The translations under genes and the position numbers were made by a program. A DNA stretch of 64,000 nt, taken from NCBI GenBank assembly GCA_028533045.1, contig JAQQAP010000008.1:124001-188000 (forward strand). The letters are read 5' to 3'. The notes under the pieces are model-generated. The model did no database searches. It was not told where the DNA came from and was given only the letters and a program-made list of their open reading frames with translations. Of the stretch, positions 26,267-35,540 are shown one piece after another. This stretch comes from Spirochaetales bacterium (GTDB lineage Bacteria > Spirochaetota > Spirochaetia > DSM-2461). Position 1 is the first letter of the stretch. The number at the start of each line of letters is the position of its first letter.

Positions 26267-27704
26267 TGATCGTTCCTTTTTCTAATTTTGCTAGTCCGTT
26301 TTTACAGATTTCCAGAAAATAGCGGGCATTGAAGCCTTCCAACAGGAATTGATAATCAATCCTGTTCTGCTCTATATAGTCATTAATTTGATCTATGAGG
26401 ATTTTAAGTTCCGATTCCTTCCGGGCCCTGCTGCTCTCCAGGGAGAAGAGGGAAAAGTATCGGGCGGGCCAAAAGCGGGGGTTCTCTTTGAGGCTGGAGG
26501 CAAGGTATTCCGAGGCCTTTTTCCCATCCCCCATTTGAAGGGCGATAAAACCACCCAAATAGTTGTACAGACTGGAAGGGAAAAGTTCTGCGGGGAGATC
26601 GTCAAAGGAGCTGTTTGCCCGGGAAAGCTCTCCCGATTCAATCAAATAAAGAAGGGCCACGAGTTTTTCCGCCAGTTGGTGTGTTTGGTTTTCCTTTTGG
26701 AGGGAACAGCTGTTGTTGAGAATGTCGGTAATGAGGAGGCAGAGTTCCTCTTCCTTGGGAGGAGTGAAAGGAGGTTCTTTCTTTTGGTCTGTGGTGACTT
26801 CCTGCCGGTGAGGCAATCGGTTGGGAGGCTGGGGGGCGTCCTGTGTTCTGAGGGTATTTTCTTCCAGGGTGCTCTGCAGTTTTTGGCGGCTTAGGGTCCT
26901 GGGGTCTCTTTTTCTCAAAAAGTAGTAGCCCTCCCTTTCTTCTACCTGAAGTTGGGGGTGGGAAATCAGGGCTACTTCCGGGGCGGCGGTAATGAGCAAG
27001 CCCCCCACCCGAAGATGTCTGGTGAATTTATCTATGATTTTGTGCTTGTTGCGGCTTTCCATGTAAATGAGGGTGTTCTTGAGAAAGATCAGATCCATGG
27101 GAGGCAGGAATTCAAAGCTGTCTTCAAAGAGATTGGTTCTATGTATATTAATTTTCTCTATGATTCTTTGATCTATGCACAGCCGACCTTCCCTGTCCTG
27201 TCCCTTTTTAATTCTGTCCAGTAAGTAGTGGTGCTCCTGACCGTCCTTGCGAAGGGCCTTGCCGGCGTAAACCCCTTTTTTGAAGTGGTCCAGAACCTGT
27301 TGGTTAATATCCAGAGCATGGACGGTAAAGAGTGCTTCCGGCAGGGAATTCATGAGGAGGGCGTAGAGGGAGAGGGCCTCTTCCCCGGTGGAGCATCCGG
27401 CGCTGAGCACATTGATGCTTTTTCCTTCCCTTATATAGGAGGGGATTATATGCTTTTCCAGGAAACGAAAAGATTTTTCCTCCCTAAAGAAGTAGGTTTC
27501 ATTGATGGTGATAAAGTCGATGAGGGCCTGGAACTCTTCCTTGTCTTCTCCGAGGAAGGAGAGGTACTCCCCGGGCTTCCACTGTTTTTGAGTTATCCTG
27601 CGATTGATGAAGCTTTCCATATTCAGCTCGTTTATGGGGATTGTGCCAATACCCGTTTTCTCTTCAATCAGTGAGGTAATACTCTGTTCCAGGGGGTAGC
27701 TCAT
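26253..27704 (-). CDS. cheR: Chemotaxis protein methyltransferase CheR with helical repeat tail
   Basis: 483 residues. The N-terminal CheR helical domain and the SAM-binding domain (LSAGCSTGEEALSL, then HALDINQQVL) fill about 1-275. A linker and a C-terminal region with TPR-like helices (PAELFPSSLYNYLGGFIALQMGDGKKASEYLASSL) follow. It methylates glutamates of receptors, using S-adenosylmethionine. The start is set at ATG 27704, which overlaps the cheB TGA (ATGA); a TTG nine bases upstream is less likely. The TPR tail could dock it to a particular receptor or array. Confidence 0.93.
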   Translation of the reverse strand: MSYPLEQSITSLIEEKTGIGTIPINELNMESFINRRITQKQWKPGEYLSFLGEDKEEFQALIDFITINETYFFREEKSFRFLEKHIIPSYIREGKSINVLSAGCSTGEEALSLYALLMNSLPEALFTVHALDINQQVLDHFKKGVYAGKALRKDGQEHHYLLDRIKKGQDREGRLCIDQRIIEKINIHRTNLFEDSFEFLPPMDLIFLKNTLIYMESRNKHKIIDKFTRHLRVGGLLITAAPEVALISHPQLQVEEREGYYFLRKRDPRTLSRQKLQSTLEENTLRTQDAPQPPNRLPHRQEVTTDQKKEPPFTPPKEEELCLLITDILNNSCSLQKENQTHQLAEKLVALLYLIESGELSRANSSFDDLPAELFPSSLYNYLGGFIALQMGDGKKASEYLASSLKENPRFWPARYFSLFSLESSRARKESELKILIDQINDYIEQNRIDYQFLLEGFNARYFLEICKNGLAKLEKGTINGHR

Positions 27705-28735
27705 AGGCGGCAAAGTTCCTTGATGGTCGAGGCCATTTTGTCCAGGGGAAGAATGCGGGAGGCTCCGTTCCTCTCGGCCGCCGCTTTGGGCATTCCGTAG
27801 ATGAGTGAACTTTCTTCATCCTGTACGAGTGTTGTTCCCCCGGCGGTGACAATTTCTACGCAGCCCTCGGCCCCGTCCTGTCCCATACCGGTAAGGAGGA
27901 CGGCCAAACCCTCTTTGCCGTATTTTTTGGCCACGGAGGTAAACATTTTATCCACCGAGGGTTTCTGGTTGTTGTAGCGGGGGGAGTCGTCACAGTAGAT
28001 TCGGGCTCCCTGGCAGAGGAGATGGCGGGTTGCCGGGGCGACCAGGGCTGTTCCCGCTTGAAGGGTATCCGTTTCTTTTGCCAGACGGACCGTAAGTTCC
28101 GTTCCCGAATTAAGCCAACTGGCATAACCGGCGTCAAAGCCTTCTTCTATATGCTGGGAAATGATGATGGGCAGGGGAAAGTCTCCCGGGAGGCCGGAGA
28201 GTAGGGTTCGGACGGCCGCTGGGCCTCCCGTTGAGGCACCTATGGCCAACACAGAGAAGGTACTGGTCCTCTTTTCTATTCTTTCCGGTTTGGTCTCTGC
28301 TGATTTTGCCATTTCGCCCCGGGGTTTTCGTCCTTTCTGAATCCGGAATTTTCCGTATTTAGATATATTCTCAAGAACGCTTTTAAAATTCTCTATAAAG
28401 CCGGGGGCATTCATTTTATCTACGCTGGGCTTGGGAATTAACTCCAGAGCCCCGTTGTTCAGAGCTTTATATCCCACTTCTGAGATGTCTTCGCTGGTGA
28501 GAATGACAATGGGAACCGGGGCGATTTCCATGATTCTGCCCGTGGCTTCTATCCCGTCCATGACGGGCATGTTCACATCCATGAGAATGAGGTCCGGTTC
28601 AAGCTCTTTTGCCATCTCTATGGCCTTCTGTCCGTTCCCCGCTTCACCGGCCACCTGGAACCCCTCAACGGAAGAGATGATTTCTTTTAAAATGGAACGA
28701 ATCAGGTATGAATCGTCAACAAGTAGTATTTTCAT
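27701..28735 (-). CDS. cheB: Chemotaxis response regulator protein-glutamate methylesterase
   Basis: 344 residues. REC domain with acceptor Asp53 (LILMDVNMPVMDG), a linker, then the methylesterase domain with the nucleophile Ser168 in GASTGGP, the histidine in ISQHIEEGF and the aspartate in GMGQDGAEG. It removes methyl groups from receptors when phosphorylated by CheA and so provides adaptation. Start ATG 28735 overlaps the stop of the CheW-like gene by four bases. Confidence 0.95.
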   Translation of the reverse strand: MKILLVDDSYLIRSILKEIISSVEGFQVAGEAGNGQKAIEMAKELEPDLILMDVNMPVMDGIEATGRIMEIAPVPIVILTSEDISEVGYKALNNGALELIPKPSVDKMNAPGFIENFKSVLENISKYGKFRIQKGRKPRGEMAKSAETKPERIEKRTSTFSVLAIGASTGGPAAVRTLLSGLPGDFPLPIIISQHIEEGFDAGYASWLNSGTELTVRLAKETDTLQAGTALVAPATRHLLCQGARIYCDDSPRYNNQKPSVDKMFTSVAKKYGKEGLAVLLTGMGQDGAEGCVEIVTAGGTTLVQDEESSLIYGMPKAAAERNGASRILPLDKMASTIKELCRL

Positions 28736-29262
28736 AGGCTTTTTCCTCTAAGAATATTGATCAGGCATTTTTGGAGATGAATGAAAAACTGAATTTTCCC
28801 CTCCTCCACGAAGCGGGAACCAAGCAGGGCGTGGTCCTGAAGCAGGCTGTCCACCCCGGGGGGATTCAGATTCATCTCTTCCAGAGGAAGCTGTTGGATC
28901 TCCGCCTGACTGGATATGATGATGCCGATAACTTCCTGGCTGAATCGCTTGTTTTGTCCCAGGACTTTCCGGAGAATTTTTTCGTATGGGGGAAAGGTAT
29001 CTTCCAGTCTGATTATAAGGCATACCTGGGATTCGCTGTCTTCCCGGGTTTCATACTTATCCATCAAGAAGCGGTTCAGGTCGCAAAGAAGCATCTTTTC
29101 CTCATTGTAGTCGGTATATTGACAGAAATAGGGGTTGCGTGATCTGAGGGAGGTGACTTCCTCGATAGATGCGCTGGCGGAGAATTGCTTTCGGCTAATA
29201 AGAAAATCCTTGTCCCGGTAATTCAGCACAAGGAAATCTCCCGCTTCTCCCTCAATAGGCAT
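28732..29262 (-). CDS. Divergent CheW-like or unknown chemosensory protein
   Basis: 176 residues without signal peptide or membrane helix. The first half (DFLVLNYRDKDFLISRKQF...SIEEVTSLRSRNPYFCQYTDY...LLCDLNRFLMD) has the strand pattern of the start of a CheW domain. The rest (QVCLIIRLE...KVLGQNKRFSQEVIGIIISSQAEIQQLPLEEM) also fits, but without a clear family signature. It sits between cheW and cheB, overlapping both (11 and 4 bases), with a strong SD (ggaggagg). A second adaptor tuned to this array is the simplest guess; I do not recognise it with confidence. Confidence 0.6.
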   Translation of the reverse strand: MPIEGEAGDFLVLNYRDKDFLISRKQFSASASIEEVTSLRSRNPYFCQYTDYNEEKMLLCDLNRFLMDKYETREDSESQVCLIIRLEDTFPPYEKILRKVLGQNKRFSQEVIGIIISSQAEIQQLPLEEMNLNPPGVDSLLQDHALLGSRFVEEGKIQFFIHLQKCLINILRGKSL

Positions 29263-29779
29263 CGATATCCTCCTCCATCCGGGTAATGACCGAAGCCAGA
29301 TTCAGTACGAATATCTCTTCGTCGTGGGGACTGATCGAACCAAGGAAGAAGTCGTCATCCTTTATGGTGGATGTTATTTTGTGTAGTTTGCTTTCTCCCA
29401 GGTTTACAATCTCCAACACGTCGGAGATGAGAAGAGCCAACTGGTCGTTTTCTTTTTTGAGAACGAGAAAAGTGGAGGATTCGAGCTTTTTGTTCTCCAG
29501 CATGGCCGTAATATCCAGGACCGTATAAGGTTCCCCGTGGCGATTGATAAAGCCCCTAAGGTAGGGCGGCGTAAAGGGGACGTAAAAGATGGGCGTGTTG
29601 CCGATTATCTCCTTAACCTCATCGGCGAAAAGGGCGTATTTTTTATCATCTATACTGATTATCATGTATTTGATGAATTTTTCGATTCGTACGCCCTCTC
29701 CCTGCTCCGGGTTTTTGCGTGACTCCTTGATCCGCTGGAGGAGGGGATCGTCATGGGTCTTTTTTAGGCTTTCAGGCAT
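29252..29779 (-). CDS. cheW: Chemotaxis adaptor CheW
   Basis: 175 residues. An N-terminal extension of about 30 polar residues is followed by a typical CheW domain: KYMIISIDDKKYALFADEVKEII, a YLRGFINRHGEPYTVLDI core motif and ALLISDVLEIVNL. It links receptors to CheA in the array. SD aaagga precedes ATG 29779, four bases after the MCP stop. It is one of two adaptor-like genes in the operon. Confidence 0.9.
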   Translation of the reverse strand: MPESLKKTHDDPLLQRIKESRKNPEQGEGVRIEKFIKYMIISIDDKKYALFADEVKEIIGNTPIFYVPFTPPYLRGFINRHGEPYTVLDITAMLENKKLESSTFLVLKKENDQLALLISDVLEIVNLGESKLHKITSTIKDDDFFLGSISPHDEEIFVLNLASVITRMEEDIDAY

Positions 29780-29783
29780 CTTT

Positions 29784-30968
29784 CTATCCTTTCAATTCAA
29801 TTTCTTGGGGTTCTAATTCCAAAGGACTGAACTCGCTGGCGGAGTTCAGAGCCTCATAGGAAACTTTTACTTGGTCCGTAAGCCGGGAGAGTTCTTCCAT
29901 ATCCATTGTCGCTTGTCTGAGTTTTTCCAGAACTTCCCCGGAGGAGGTCACTTGCTCCTGAAAAATATGGCTTATCTCTTCGGTGGATGAGGCGGCTATC
30001 TCGGTGGAGTGCAATACTTCTTCAAATATCTTTTCCAGCTCTTTAGACAGTTTATTTCCTTCGCTTATGAGCTCCGTGCCGTTTTCCGAAGAGATGATCA
30101 GGTTATCCGACGAGTGCTGGATTTCCGTAATCTTCCCTCTTATTTCGTTGGTGGATGAGATGGTGCTGTCCGCCAGCCGTCTGATCTCGGCGGCTACTAT
30201 CTGAAAGTTTTTTCCCGCGTCTCCTGCGGCTGCTGCTTCAAGTTCGGCATTAAAAGCGATGATCTTCGTTTGGTCCGTAATCTGATTGATCATCTTGATG
30301 ATCTCCCAGATCTTCTCGATTCTTTCACTCAGAAAGAGGATCCCCTTGAGAGTATCCCTGTTAGAACTTTCTATTTCATCCATCTTTCTCAGGCTCTTTC
30401 CTACCAGTTCAAACCCACTCAGAAAAGCCTCTTTGAGAGAGAGGGTGATGCGGTAAATTTCTTCAAAATCGTGTGAAATATTTTGAAACAGTTCTCCCCT
30501 GTCTTCCATACCGGACAGCATATCCCGGAGTTGTTCCTTTTGGGTGCGGGCCATTTCGGGGAGCCGGTCGGTGGATACCCCGTAATTCACGCTGGACTCA
30601 ATCAGCTCCTGGCAGTACTGATCCATTTTTTGGGTGGCCCCTTTCTCTTTTTGGTAGAGATTTATTACAATGGTGAAGAGCTTCTTTAGCTCTCCATAGG
30701 GTTCGAAAGAGGGCGATTCTTCTTTCCTGAGAGATTCCAGCATTTTCCCGAACTGTCGGAGTTTTCCCCTTGTTTGTAACAAAAGCAAGACAGATGTCAT
30801 AAGGGAAATTCCCAAAAGGGTCAGGTAGGATGTACTGTGTTCTGTGAGCAGGCCCGGTTCGAGGAAGGGAAAAGCGATAAAAGGTAAGAGGACGAGAGAG
30901 CCCAGGAGGATCAGCCCCCTGGAAAGGCCGATTTTTTTTGTTTTCCCGTTTTTTGGTGCAGAGCTCAT
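29784..30968 (-). CDS. Methyl-accepting chemotaxis protein without a periplasmic domain, non-canonical tip
   Basis: 394 residues. Two adjacent N-terminal transmembrane helices (about 16-36 and 47-64) leave almost no periplasmic loop, so sensing must be membrane-internal, cytoplasmic or indirect. The signalling hairpin has the variant tip TDQTKIIAFNAELEAAAAGDAGKNF seen in the receptors at 16389 and 18510. Encoded inside the che operon, it is probably the core receptor of the array. SD-like aagggg lies upstream of ATG 30968, nine bases after the PilZ gene. Confidence 0.9.
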   Translation of the reverse strand: MSSAPKNGKTKKIGLSRGLILLGSLVLLPFIAFPFLEPGLLTEHSTSYLTLLGISLMTSVLLLLQTRGKLRQFGKMLESLRKEESPSFEPYGELKKLFTIVINLYQKEKGATQKMDQYCQELIESSVNYGVSTDRLPEMARTQKEQLRDMLSGMEDRGELFQNISHDFEEIYRITLSLKEAFLSGFELVGKSLRKMDEIESSNRDTLKGILFLSERIEKIWEIIKMINQITDQTKIIAFNAELEAAAAGDAGKNFQIVAAEIRRLADSTISSTNEIRGKITEIQHSSDNLIISSENGTELISEGNKLSKELEKIFEEVLHSTEIAASSTEEISHIFQEQVTSSGEVLEKLRQATMDMEELSRLTDQVKVSYEALNSASEFSPLELEPQEIELKG

Positions 30969-33380: not shown

Positions 33381-33491
33381 GTAAATTTTTAGTTAGATGG
33401 CTTTTTTAAAAGCTAGTTTTGGTTGACTTTTATAGTTAGAACTCATTAACATGTTGCAAGTTTAATATTCATTAAAAAATAAGGAGCATGT

Positions 33492-35540
33492 ATGGGTTTG
33501 TCGCCGGTTATAAAAGTTGATAATGAAAAATGTACCAACTGCCATCAATGTATTAGTGTTTGTCCCGTTAAGTTTTGTATGGATGGGAGTGGCGATGTTA
33601 TTATTCTGAATCATGAGCTCTGTATTGCCTGCGGTAACTGTATTGATGCCTGCTCCCATGGGGCCCGTCTGAGAATGGATGATTTTGAATCTTTTCTGGA
33701 AGATTCCCGTCTAAAGCCTATGGTTGCCATTGTTGCACCTGCTGTTGTCGCTACATTTGGTGATGATATGTTAAGGGTAAACGGTTTGCTTCGCTCCCTG
33801 GGGGTGGAAGCCATGTTCGATGTAAGTTTTGGTGCGGAATTAACGATTCAAAGTTATCTTGAGCATATTAAGGAGAACCAACCGGAGTTGGTTATTTCTC
33901 AGCCCTGTCCGGCTATCGTTAATTATATTGAGTTATATAAACCTGAACTCCTTTCCTATTTGGCTCCTGCCGATAGCCCTATGTTGCATACGATGAAGAT
34001 GATTAAGGAATTTTATCCCTCCTTTTCCAATCATAAGATAGTCGTTTTATCTCCCTGTTTGGCAAAAAAAAGAGAGTTGGAAGTGACTGGTTTGGGAGAT
34101 TACAATATTACTCTGGAAGGAGTGGAGAGTTACCTGGAGAGAATCGGAAAGTCCATAAAAGACTATGATGAGGTAGCTTTTTTCAGCCCTGATCCAGAAA
34201 GGGCTGTTCTTTTTTCCTCCCCCGGAGGCTTGTTGGCGACATTGGAAAGAGAAAACCCCATAGCTGCTCAAAAAACAAGAAAAATCGAAGGGCCCGATCT
34301 GGTCTACCCCTATTTGGAAAGTCTACCTCAGTCTTTGAAAGATGGAGTGAATCCGCTTATTGTGGATTGTTTAAACTGCGAGAAAGGTTGCAACGGCGGA
34401 ACGGGTACCAGAAATCGTAATCTCTCTATGGATCATTTGGAGCATGCGATTGAGCAGCGAGCGGTAACCCAAATAAAGAGGAATAAGAGAAAGATCAATA
34501 AGGCTATAAAAAAATACTGGGATAAAGATTTATACTCTCGGCACTATATTGATCGATCGGCGTCTGTGAAAATACTTACACCCAATGAAGAAGAGATTAA
34601 ACAAATTTACCGTGATATGCATAAGTATAGCGACAATGATATTAAAAATTGTGCTTCCTGTGGCTACAATAAATGCGAGGATATGGCAAAGGCCATATAC
34701 AACGGACTGAACCGTGTTGAGAACTGTCACTATTATCAGTCCGATATAGTCGCGATTGCTCGGGACAAATCAATTAGTCTGAGTAATCGTATTAATGATA
34801 AGATTAATGAATCTTCTTCCGAAATGCTCAAAATAAGCGAGATGGTAGAGACCCTTATGGCCAGGACGCAGAATCAAAGTGCGAATATAGAGGAGAGTTC
34901 CGCTGCTGTTAAGCAGATGATGAGTTCCATTTCCGCCGTTCACGATAATTTACTTGAACGAAAAGGTGTTGTCTCTGATTTGAAGGAAACCGCAGAGAGT
35001 AAAATATCCGGCTTAAGAGATATGGTAAACTCCATAAGGGAAGTCGTTAATGGGGTAGATAAAGTTCAGGAATTTAACAATACCGTTGATAATATTGCTC
35101 AAAACACAAACCTGCTTGCCATGAATGCCTCTATTGAGGCAGCCCATGCAGGAGAACATGGCAGAGGTTTTTCTGTCGTAGCGGGAGAAATCCGAAAGTT
35201 GGCTGAAGAAACCGGTGAAAATGCTCATAATATTGCCGACGACCTTAAAAAAATAACGACAGATATTAAAAATTCTATGAGAGTTTCCGAAGAAAGCAGT
35301 TCGGATATGGAGAAGATAATAGGCGACTTCTTTCGAATTAGTGACAGTCTTGCTCATATTTCCGCCAGTATGTCGGAGATGAGTGCCGGGACAGAGCAAA
35401 TTCAGACCTCTATGACAAGCATGGTGGAAGGGAGCCACGGGGTTGCCGAATTTTGTGAAGTTATGGGCGAGATGGTGAGGAATTTAGAGCGTATTTTTAA
35501 TGAGCTAACCGAGATGAGTCAACATCGGGAGATTGTTTGA
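33492..35540 (+). CDS. [FeFe]-hydrogenase-like sensor fused to a chemoreceptor signalling domain
   Basis: 682 residues, no membrane segment. Two [4Fe-4S] ferredoxin motifs (Cys14/17/20/24 and 44/47/50/54) are followed by an H-cluster domain. All four likely cluster cysteines are present: Cys139 in SQPCP, Cys189 in SPCLAKKRE, Cys296 and Cys300 in NCEKGC. The proton-transfer Cys before Cys139 is Pro, and the methionines of the usual motifs 2 and 3 appear as Ser and Leu, as expected for sensory rather than catalytic enzymes. An ACS-type Fe-S motif (Cys387/390/395/412) and an MCP signalling domain (about 440-682) with a near-canonical tip follow. A cytosolic H2 or redox receptor is inferred. SD aaggag. 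Confidence 0.9.

Follow-up and report, generated by a model that had tools for sequence, protein, structure and literature searches.

Related sensory hydrogenases

Group C2 of the [FeFe]-hydrogenases was named 'Chemotactic (putative)' in HydDB in 2016 and was defined there by sequence clustering (PMC5037454). Its H-domain is of the group C type and is linked to a methyl-accepting chemotaxis protein (MCP), and the proposed role is H2 sensing (PMC5037454). We found no experimental assay of any C2 class protein in the literature. Ballor et al. (2012) reportedly described [FeFe]-hydrogenase-like H2 sensors in treponemes, which are also spirochaetes. The gene considered here lies in a 64,000-nucleotide stretch of Spirochaetales DNA (the window; contig JAQQAP010000008.1, positions 124,001 to 188,000) that belongs to a 4.2-Mb draft genome in 47 contigs. 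Judged from its sequence, the encoded receptor appears to match C2 in every feature of the class description that was compared. It differs in that the MCP is fused to the H-domain in one chain.

Two characterized proteins allow a closer comparison. In Thermotoga maritima HydS, a presumed sensor from group C, accessory Fe-S sites likewise flank the H-domain on both sides, the H-cluster ligands are intact and all three residues C299, M353 and M497 (Clostridium pasteurianum CpI numbering) are replaced (PMC10055695). However, it has Ala, Gly and Ser at these positions where the receptor has Pro, Ser and Leu, it carries a PAS domain rather than an MCP, and its purified form turns over H2 (PMC10055695). 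Thermoanaerobacter mathranii HydS (group D) shares with the receptor Ser at M353, Leu at M497, the absence of C299 and the Cx2Cx4Cx16C motif, but it has no signaling domain in its chain (PMC8163306, PMC13104023).

Domain organization of the receptor

An earlier note on this DNA proposed that an H-cluster domain is fused to an MCP signaling domain in a soluble, cytosolic protein. Pfam searches confirm the fusion (Table 1). The MCPsignal match covers residues 496-655 (E = 6e-32), and PF02906 and PF00015 are both present in 41/41 full-length relatives that were aligned, so the fusion is not a chance event. A cytosolic location is likewise supported, because hydropathy analysis gives no transmembrane stretch. 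That first description can be extended by the two N-terminal [4Fe-4S] motifs, the C-terminal Fe-S motif, a paralogue elsewhere in the genome and a large number of homologues.

Table 1. Features of the receptor gene and nearby chemotaxis genes, in window coordinates
Feature	Coordinates	Strand	Details and basis
Receptor gene	33492..35540	+	682 aa, ATG start
AAGGAG, ribosome-binding-site-like	33481..33486	+	Direct reading; ends 5 bases before ATG
Two ferredoxin-type [4Fe-4S] motifs, Cys 14, 17, 20, 24 and 44, 47, 50, 54	33510..33671	+	Pfam Fer4, aa 7-60
H-cluster domain Fe_hyd_lg_C, aa 75-303	33714..34400	+	Pfam, E 9e-30
L1 motif SQPCPAI: Pro138 = CpI C299, Cys139 = C300	33897..33917	+	PDB alignment and conservation
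L2 motif SPCLAK: Ser187 = M353, Cys189 = C355, Lys192 = K358	34050..34067	+	Alignment to CpI, conservation
L3 motif: Leu294 = M497, ligands Cys296 and Cys300, extra conserved Cys293	34365..34406	+	Conservation
C-terminal [4Fe-4S] motif C387-x2-C390-x4-C395-x16-C412	34647..34730	+	Pfam FeS PF04060, aa 386-413
MCP signaling hairpin, helices aa 413-552 and 554-678	34728..35525	+	AlphaFold model, Pfam MCPsignal, Tsr alignment
Methylation-consensus site, first	34878..34907	+	Pattern match only
Methylation-consensus site, second	35382..35411	+	Pattern match only
cheB, cheW-like and MCP-domain protein genes	27701..30968	-	Pfam

The AlphaFold2 model of the receptor has a mean pLDDT of 86, and its head matches solved [FeFe]-hydrogenases, with CbA5H as the best match (E = 3e-19). 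In the model, the first MCP helix begins directly past Cys412, the last Fe-S ligand, and pairs with the second helix; neither the model nor Pfam places a HAMP domain between them. The tip of the hairpin is conserved. The MCP part aligns with the signaling domain of MCP I (Tsr) over 229 residues with zero gaps, which suggests that this hairpin may belong to the 36-heptad class.

Active site

The alignment from the PDB search pairs the CpI segment TSCCPGW with SQPCPAI of the receptor and therefore puts Pro138 at the proton-relay position C299 and Cys139 at C300. All four H-cluster cysteines (C139, C189, C296 and C300) are intact, while the second sphere carries Ser187 in place of M353 and Leu294 in place of M497. 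Each of these readings had been anticipated in the earlier note, which described intact cluster cysteines, a proline in place of the proton-transfer cysteine and altered second-sphere residues. The proton relay is gone as well, with the E279-E282 segment deleted and S319 replaced by Ala158. Lys192 is the counterpart of CpI K358, a residue in contact with a cyanide of the [2Fe] part.

The four H-cluster cysteines, Ser187, Leu294 and all eight N-terminal ferredoxin-motif cysteines are invariant in 66 homologues, and Pro138 and the four C-terminal Fe-S cysteines are each kept in 65/66. Lys192 is nearly invariant in the family. Since the altered residues are nearly fixed across these homologues, they are a family hallmark and not a product of decay. 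Two extra cysteines, Cys29 (33576-33578) and Cys293 (34368-34370), are conserved in 64 and 65 of the 66 family members, respectively, and are absent from the other hydrogenases of the genome; Cys293 is located three residues ahead of ligand Cys296.

With its four H-cluster cysteines and Fe_hyd_lg_C fold, the receptor has the features of the [FeFe]-hydrogenase H-domain superfamily. The replacement of C299, M353 and M497, the loss of the proton path and the C-terminal Cx2Cx4Cx16C domain are features of sensory groups C and D, for both of which this motif has been reported (PMC8163306). The NCBIfam TIGR02512 score is 84.8 bits against a cut-off of 406, which, with Pro138 in place of the C299 of a TSCCP-type motif, leaves the protein outside catalytic group A. 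We rejected a catalytic hydrogenase because group A and B1 model scores fall far short of their cut-offs and the proton path has been lost. The anatomy and the sensory rather than catalytic role that the note proposed both agree with the evidence, but the proline on which this role partly leaned is found in other proteins too and does not prove a lack of catalysis: roughly 10% of the sensory [FeFe]-hydrogenases carry Pro at C299 (PMC10055695), and slow H2 turnover persists in characterized sensory enzymes that lack C299 (PMC10055695, PMC8163306).

Relatives and modular heads

A genome scan recovered 71 loci related to the receptor, mostly from Spirochaetota. A pseudogene or chance fusion was rejected as an explanation of the gene, as the full architecture is conserved across relatives. 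In a tree of the heads, the receptor groups with L019 (64% identical); its paralogue L005 and further Spirochaetales are placed close by with good support. The reference rows from the remaining hydrogenase groups have long branches, and their placement is unsure.

Similar heads are joined to other outputs in several genomes. One is fused to a PAS/histidine kinase in a Bacteroidota locus (L071, 4950-8216), one to Hpt and ATPase domains in Treponema sp. (L069, 2727-5492) and one to PAS in Fibrobacter sp. of the Fibrobacterota (L072, 4911-6707). Such an exchange of outputs is as expected for a sensor. One Myxococcota head of the same type ends without an output domain.

Hydrogenases, maturases and chemotaxis partners in the host genome

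Six Fe_hyd_lg_C genes are present in the host genome: two with group A-type motifs, two receptors and two others of sensory type. A group A6 bifurcating-type hydrogenase is accompanied by HydB- and HydC-like genes. The second receptor of the same kind (L005, contig C7, 1276-3354) is 50% identical to the first and is found less than 10 kb from the bifurcating-type hydrogenase genes. Of the two further sensory-type [FeFe]-hydrogenases (L003 and L004), one has a PAS domain and is followed by a SpoIIE phosphatase gene, and the other is short and lies beside a histidine-kinase-like ATPase gene.

The maturases HydE, HydF and HydG, on whose presence in the genome the earlier note had made its proposal depend, were looked for and found, all above curated cut-offs on one contig (C20). 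CheA and CheW partners are both encoded, CheA by two genes. The three maturases, the two CheA genes, the other [FeFe]-hydrogenases and the second receptor copy together make a working H2 receptor feasible in this organism.

Proposed function

In its host genome, the protein is probably a soluble chemotaxis receptor that senses H2 with a slow, retuned [FeFe]-hydrogenase head. H2 would alter the state of the H-cluster in the slow head, and the change would pass along the Fe-S chain and through the contact of the head with the C-terminal Fe-S domain. The signal could then enter the long helix that starts past Cys412, alter the MCP hairpin, change how active CheW-bound CheA is and in this way affect swimming. 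We infer H-cluster insertion, H2 as the signal, the signal route and the sign of the swimming response. A simple transfer of electrons to the C-terminal cluster would be a less likely route, because under 1 atm H2 this cluster of T. mathranii HydS (TamHydS) was not reduced, yet the secondary structure of the protein changed (PMC13104023).

If the receptor reads H2 directly, it would explain how anaerobic spirochaetes position themselves in the syntrophic and gut communities that trade H2. It would also make the still putative C2 class accessible to experiment, and a soluble one-chain receptor is convenient for both spectroscopy and kinase assays.

Linkage of receptors and maturases

The genomic context in other genomes supports a link between the receptor family and H-cluster assembly. 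The receptor gene sits between hydE and hydG-hydF in genome G261 and adjoins hydE, hydG and hydF in G319. The sensor-kinase homologue L071 is flanked by hydE and hydG, and hydE is near a further homologue, L073. Eight further genomes carry receptor and HydF on a single contig, where at least 99 kb separates them; close linkage is therefore occasional. Of 296 Spirochaetota genomes, a receptor-type head is encoded in 61 and HydF in 97 (E <= 1e-60). Both occur in 39 genomes, the receptor only in 22, HydF only in 58 and neither in 177, which is a co-occurrence above expectation (Fisher p = 3e-8, uncorrected for shared descent).

Receptors in genomes without detectable maturases

HydF was not detected in 22 of the 61 receptor-bearing spirochaete genomes. 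In 18 of these 22, which are 94-99% complete, HydE and above-cut-off HydG went undetected as well (G088, G111, G163, G178, G182, G216, G222, G240, G246, G257, G277, G287, G293, G296, G298, G299, G309 and G312); G216 has one sub-cut-off HydG match. A separate HydF-specific domain model found none in the 18 genomes and found HydF in 6/6 positive controls. Two of these 18 assemblies consist of only two contigs each. This set of genomes is the most interesting by-product of the analysis. It lets one ask, in natural material, whether a sensory [FeFe]-hydrogenase can do without the complete H-cluster.

These genomes count against reading the receptor as an H2 sensor, yet the family keeps its conserved residues there: in 20 receptors of maturase-less genomes, the H-cluster cysteines stay in 20/20 and Pro138 in 18/20 (one of the 20, L116, comes from a genome that is 90% complete and is not among the 18). 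They argue for the most probable of the alternatives, a redox or oxygen sensor that works on its [4Fe-4S] sites only. Its H-domain would hold a cubane without the [2Fe] part, and the signal would follow oxidation or loss of the Fe-S clusters. To hold a cubane, the four H-cluster cysteines suffice, and their conservation is therefore no proof of a [2Fe] part; the loss of the catalytic proton path also suits a sensor of this kind. However, the host genome has all three maturases, and sensor genes sit with maturase genes in the four genomes or contigs described above. In addition, all 20 receptors of maturase-less genomes keep Lys192. Moreover, group A hydrogenases whose motifs are canonical persist in seven of the 18 genomes, and a failure to detect maturases is thus not enough to establish that the cluster is absent; other genomes of the set retain a group-B-like enzyme. 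On balance we consider a sensor limited to [4Fe-4S] sites unlikely in the host.

For the spirochaetes without detectable HydE, HydF and HydG themselves, we tentatively entertain the possibility that H-cluster assembly follows a route that is unknown or has diverged strongly, or that the receptor family works there without the [2Fe] half. Some eukaryotes, among them Entamoeba and Giardia, carry [FeFe]-hydrogenase genes without known HydE, HydF and HydG. A literature search found no bacterial report of this situation, which is not proof of its absence.

Less likely signals and outputs

An H-cluster head could also sense CO or the general redox potential of the cell instead of H2. H-clusters bind CO, and in related sensory enzymes the way CO is handled differs with the altered second sphere (PMC8163306). 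However, the sensory enzymes that have been studied are more, not less, CO-tolerant (PMC8163306), and we regard this reading as improbable. Least probable of all is a regulator of a non-swimming output through the CheA/CheW pathway, which would agree with the two pathways that two CheA genes make possible and with the other outputs of similar heads, but not with an MCP domain in all of the full-length relatives or with a hairpin that aligns gaplessly to a taxis receptor.

Neighborhood and composition of the gene

The cheB and cheW genes in the window are about 4-6 kb from the receptor gene. A functional link to these genes and the neighboring MCP gene was considered and has no support, as the flanks recur in 0/71 loci apart from a cheB-like match in L075. 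Catalytic hydrogenase genes beside the receptor were not seen as a general rule in the 71 loci. The receptor gene has a G+C content of 41.9% against 49.8% for the window, and its third positions are at 41.4% against about 57% in two nearby genes, which hints at recent acquisition.
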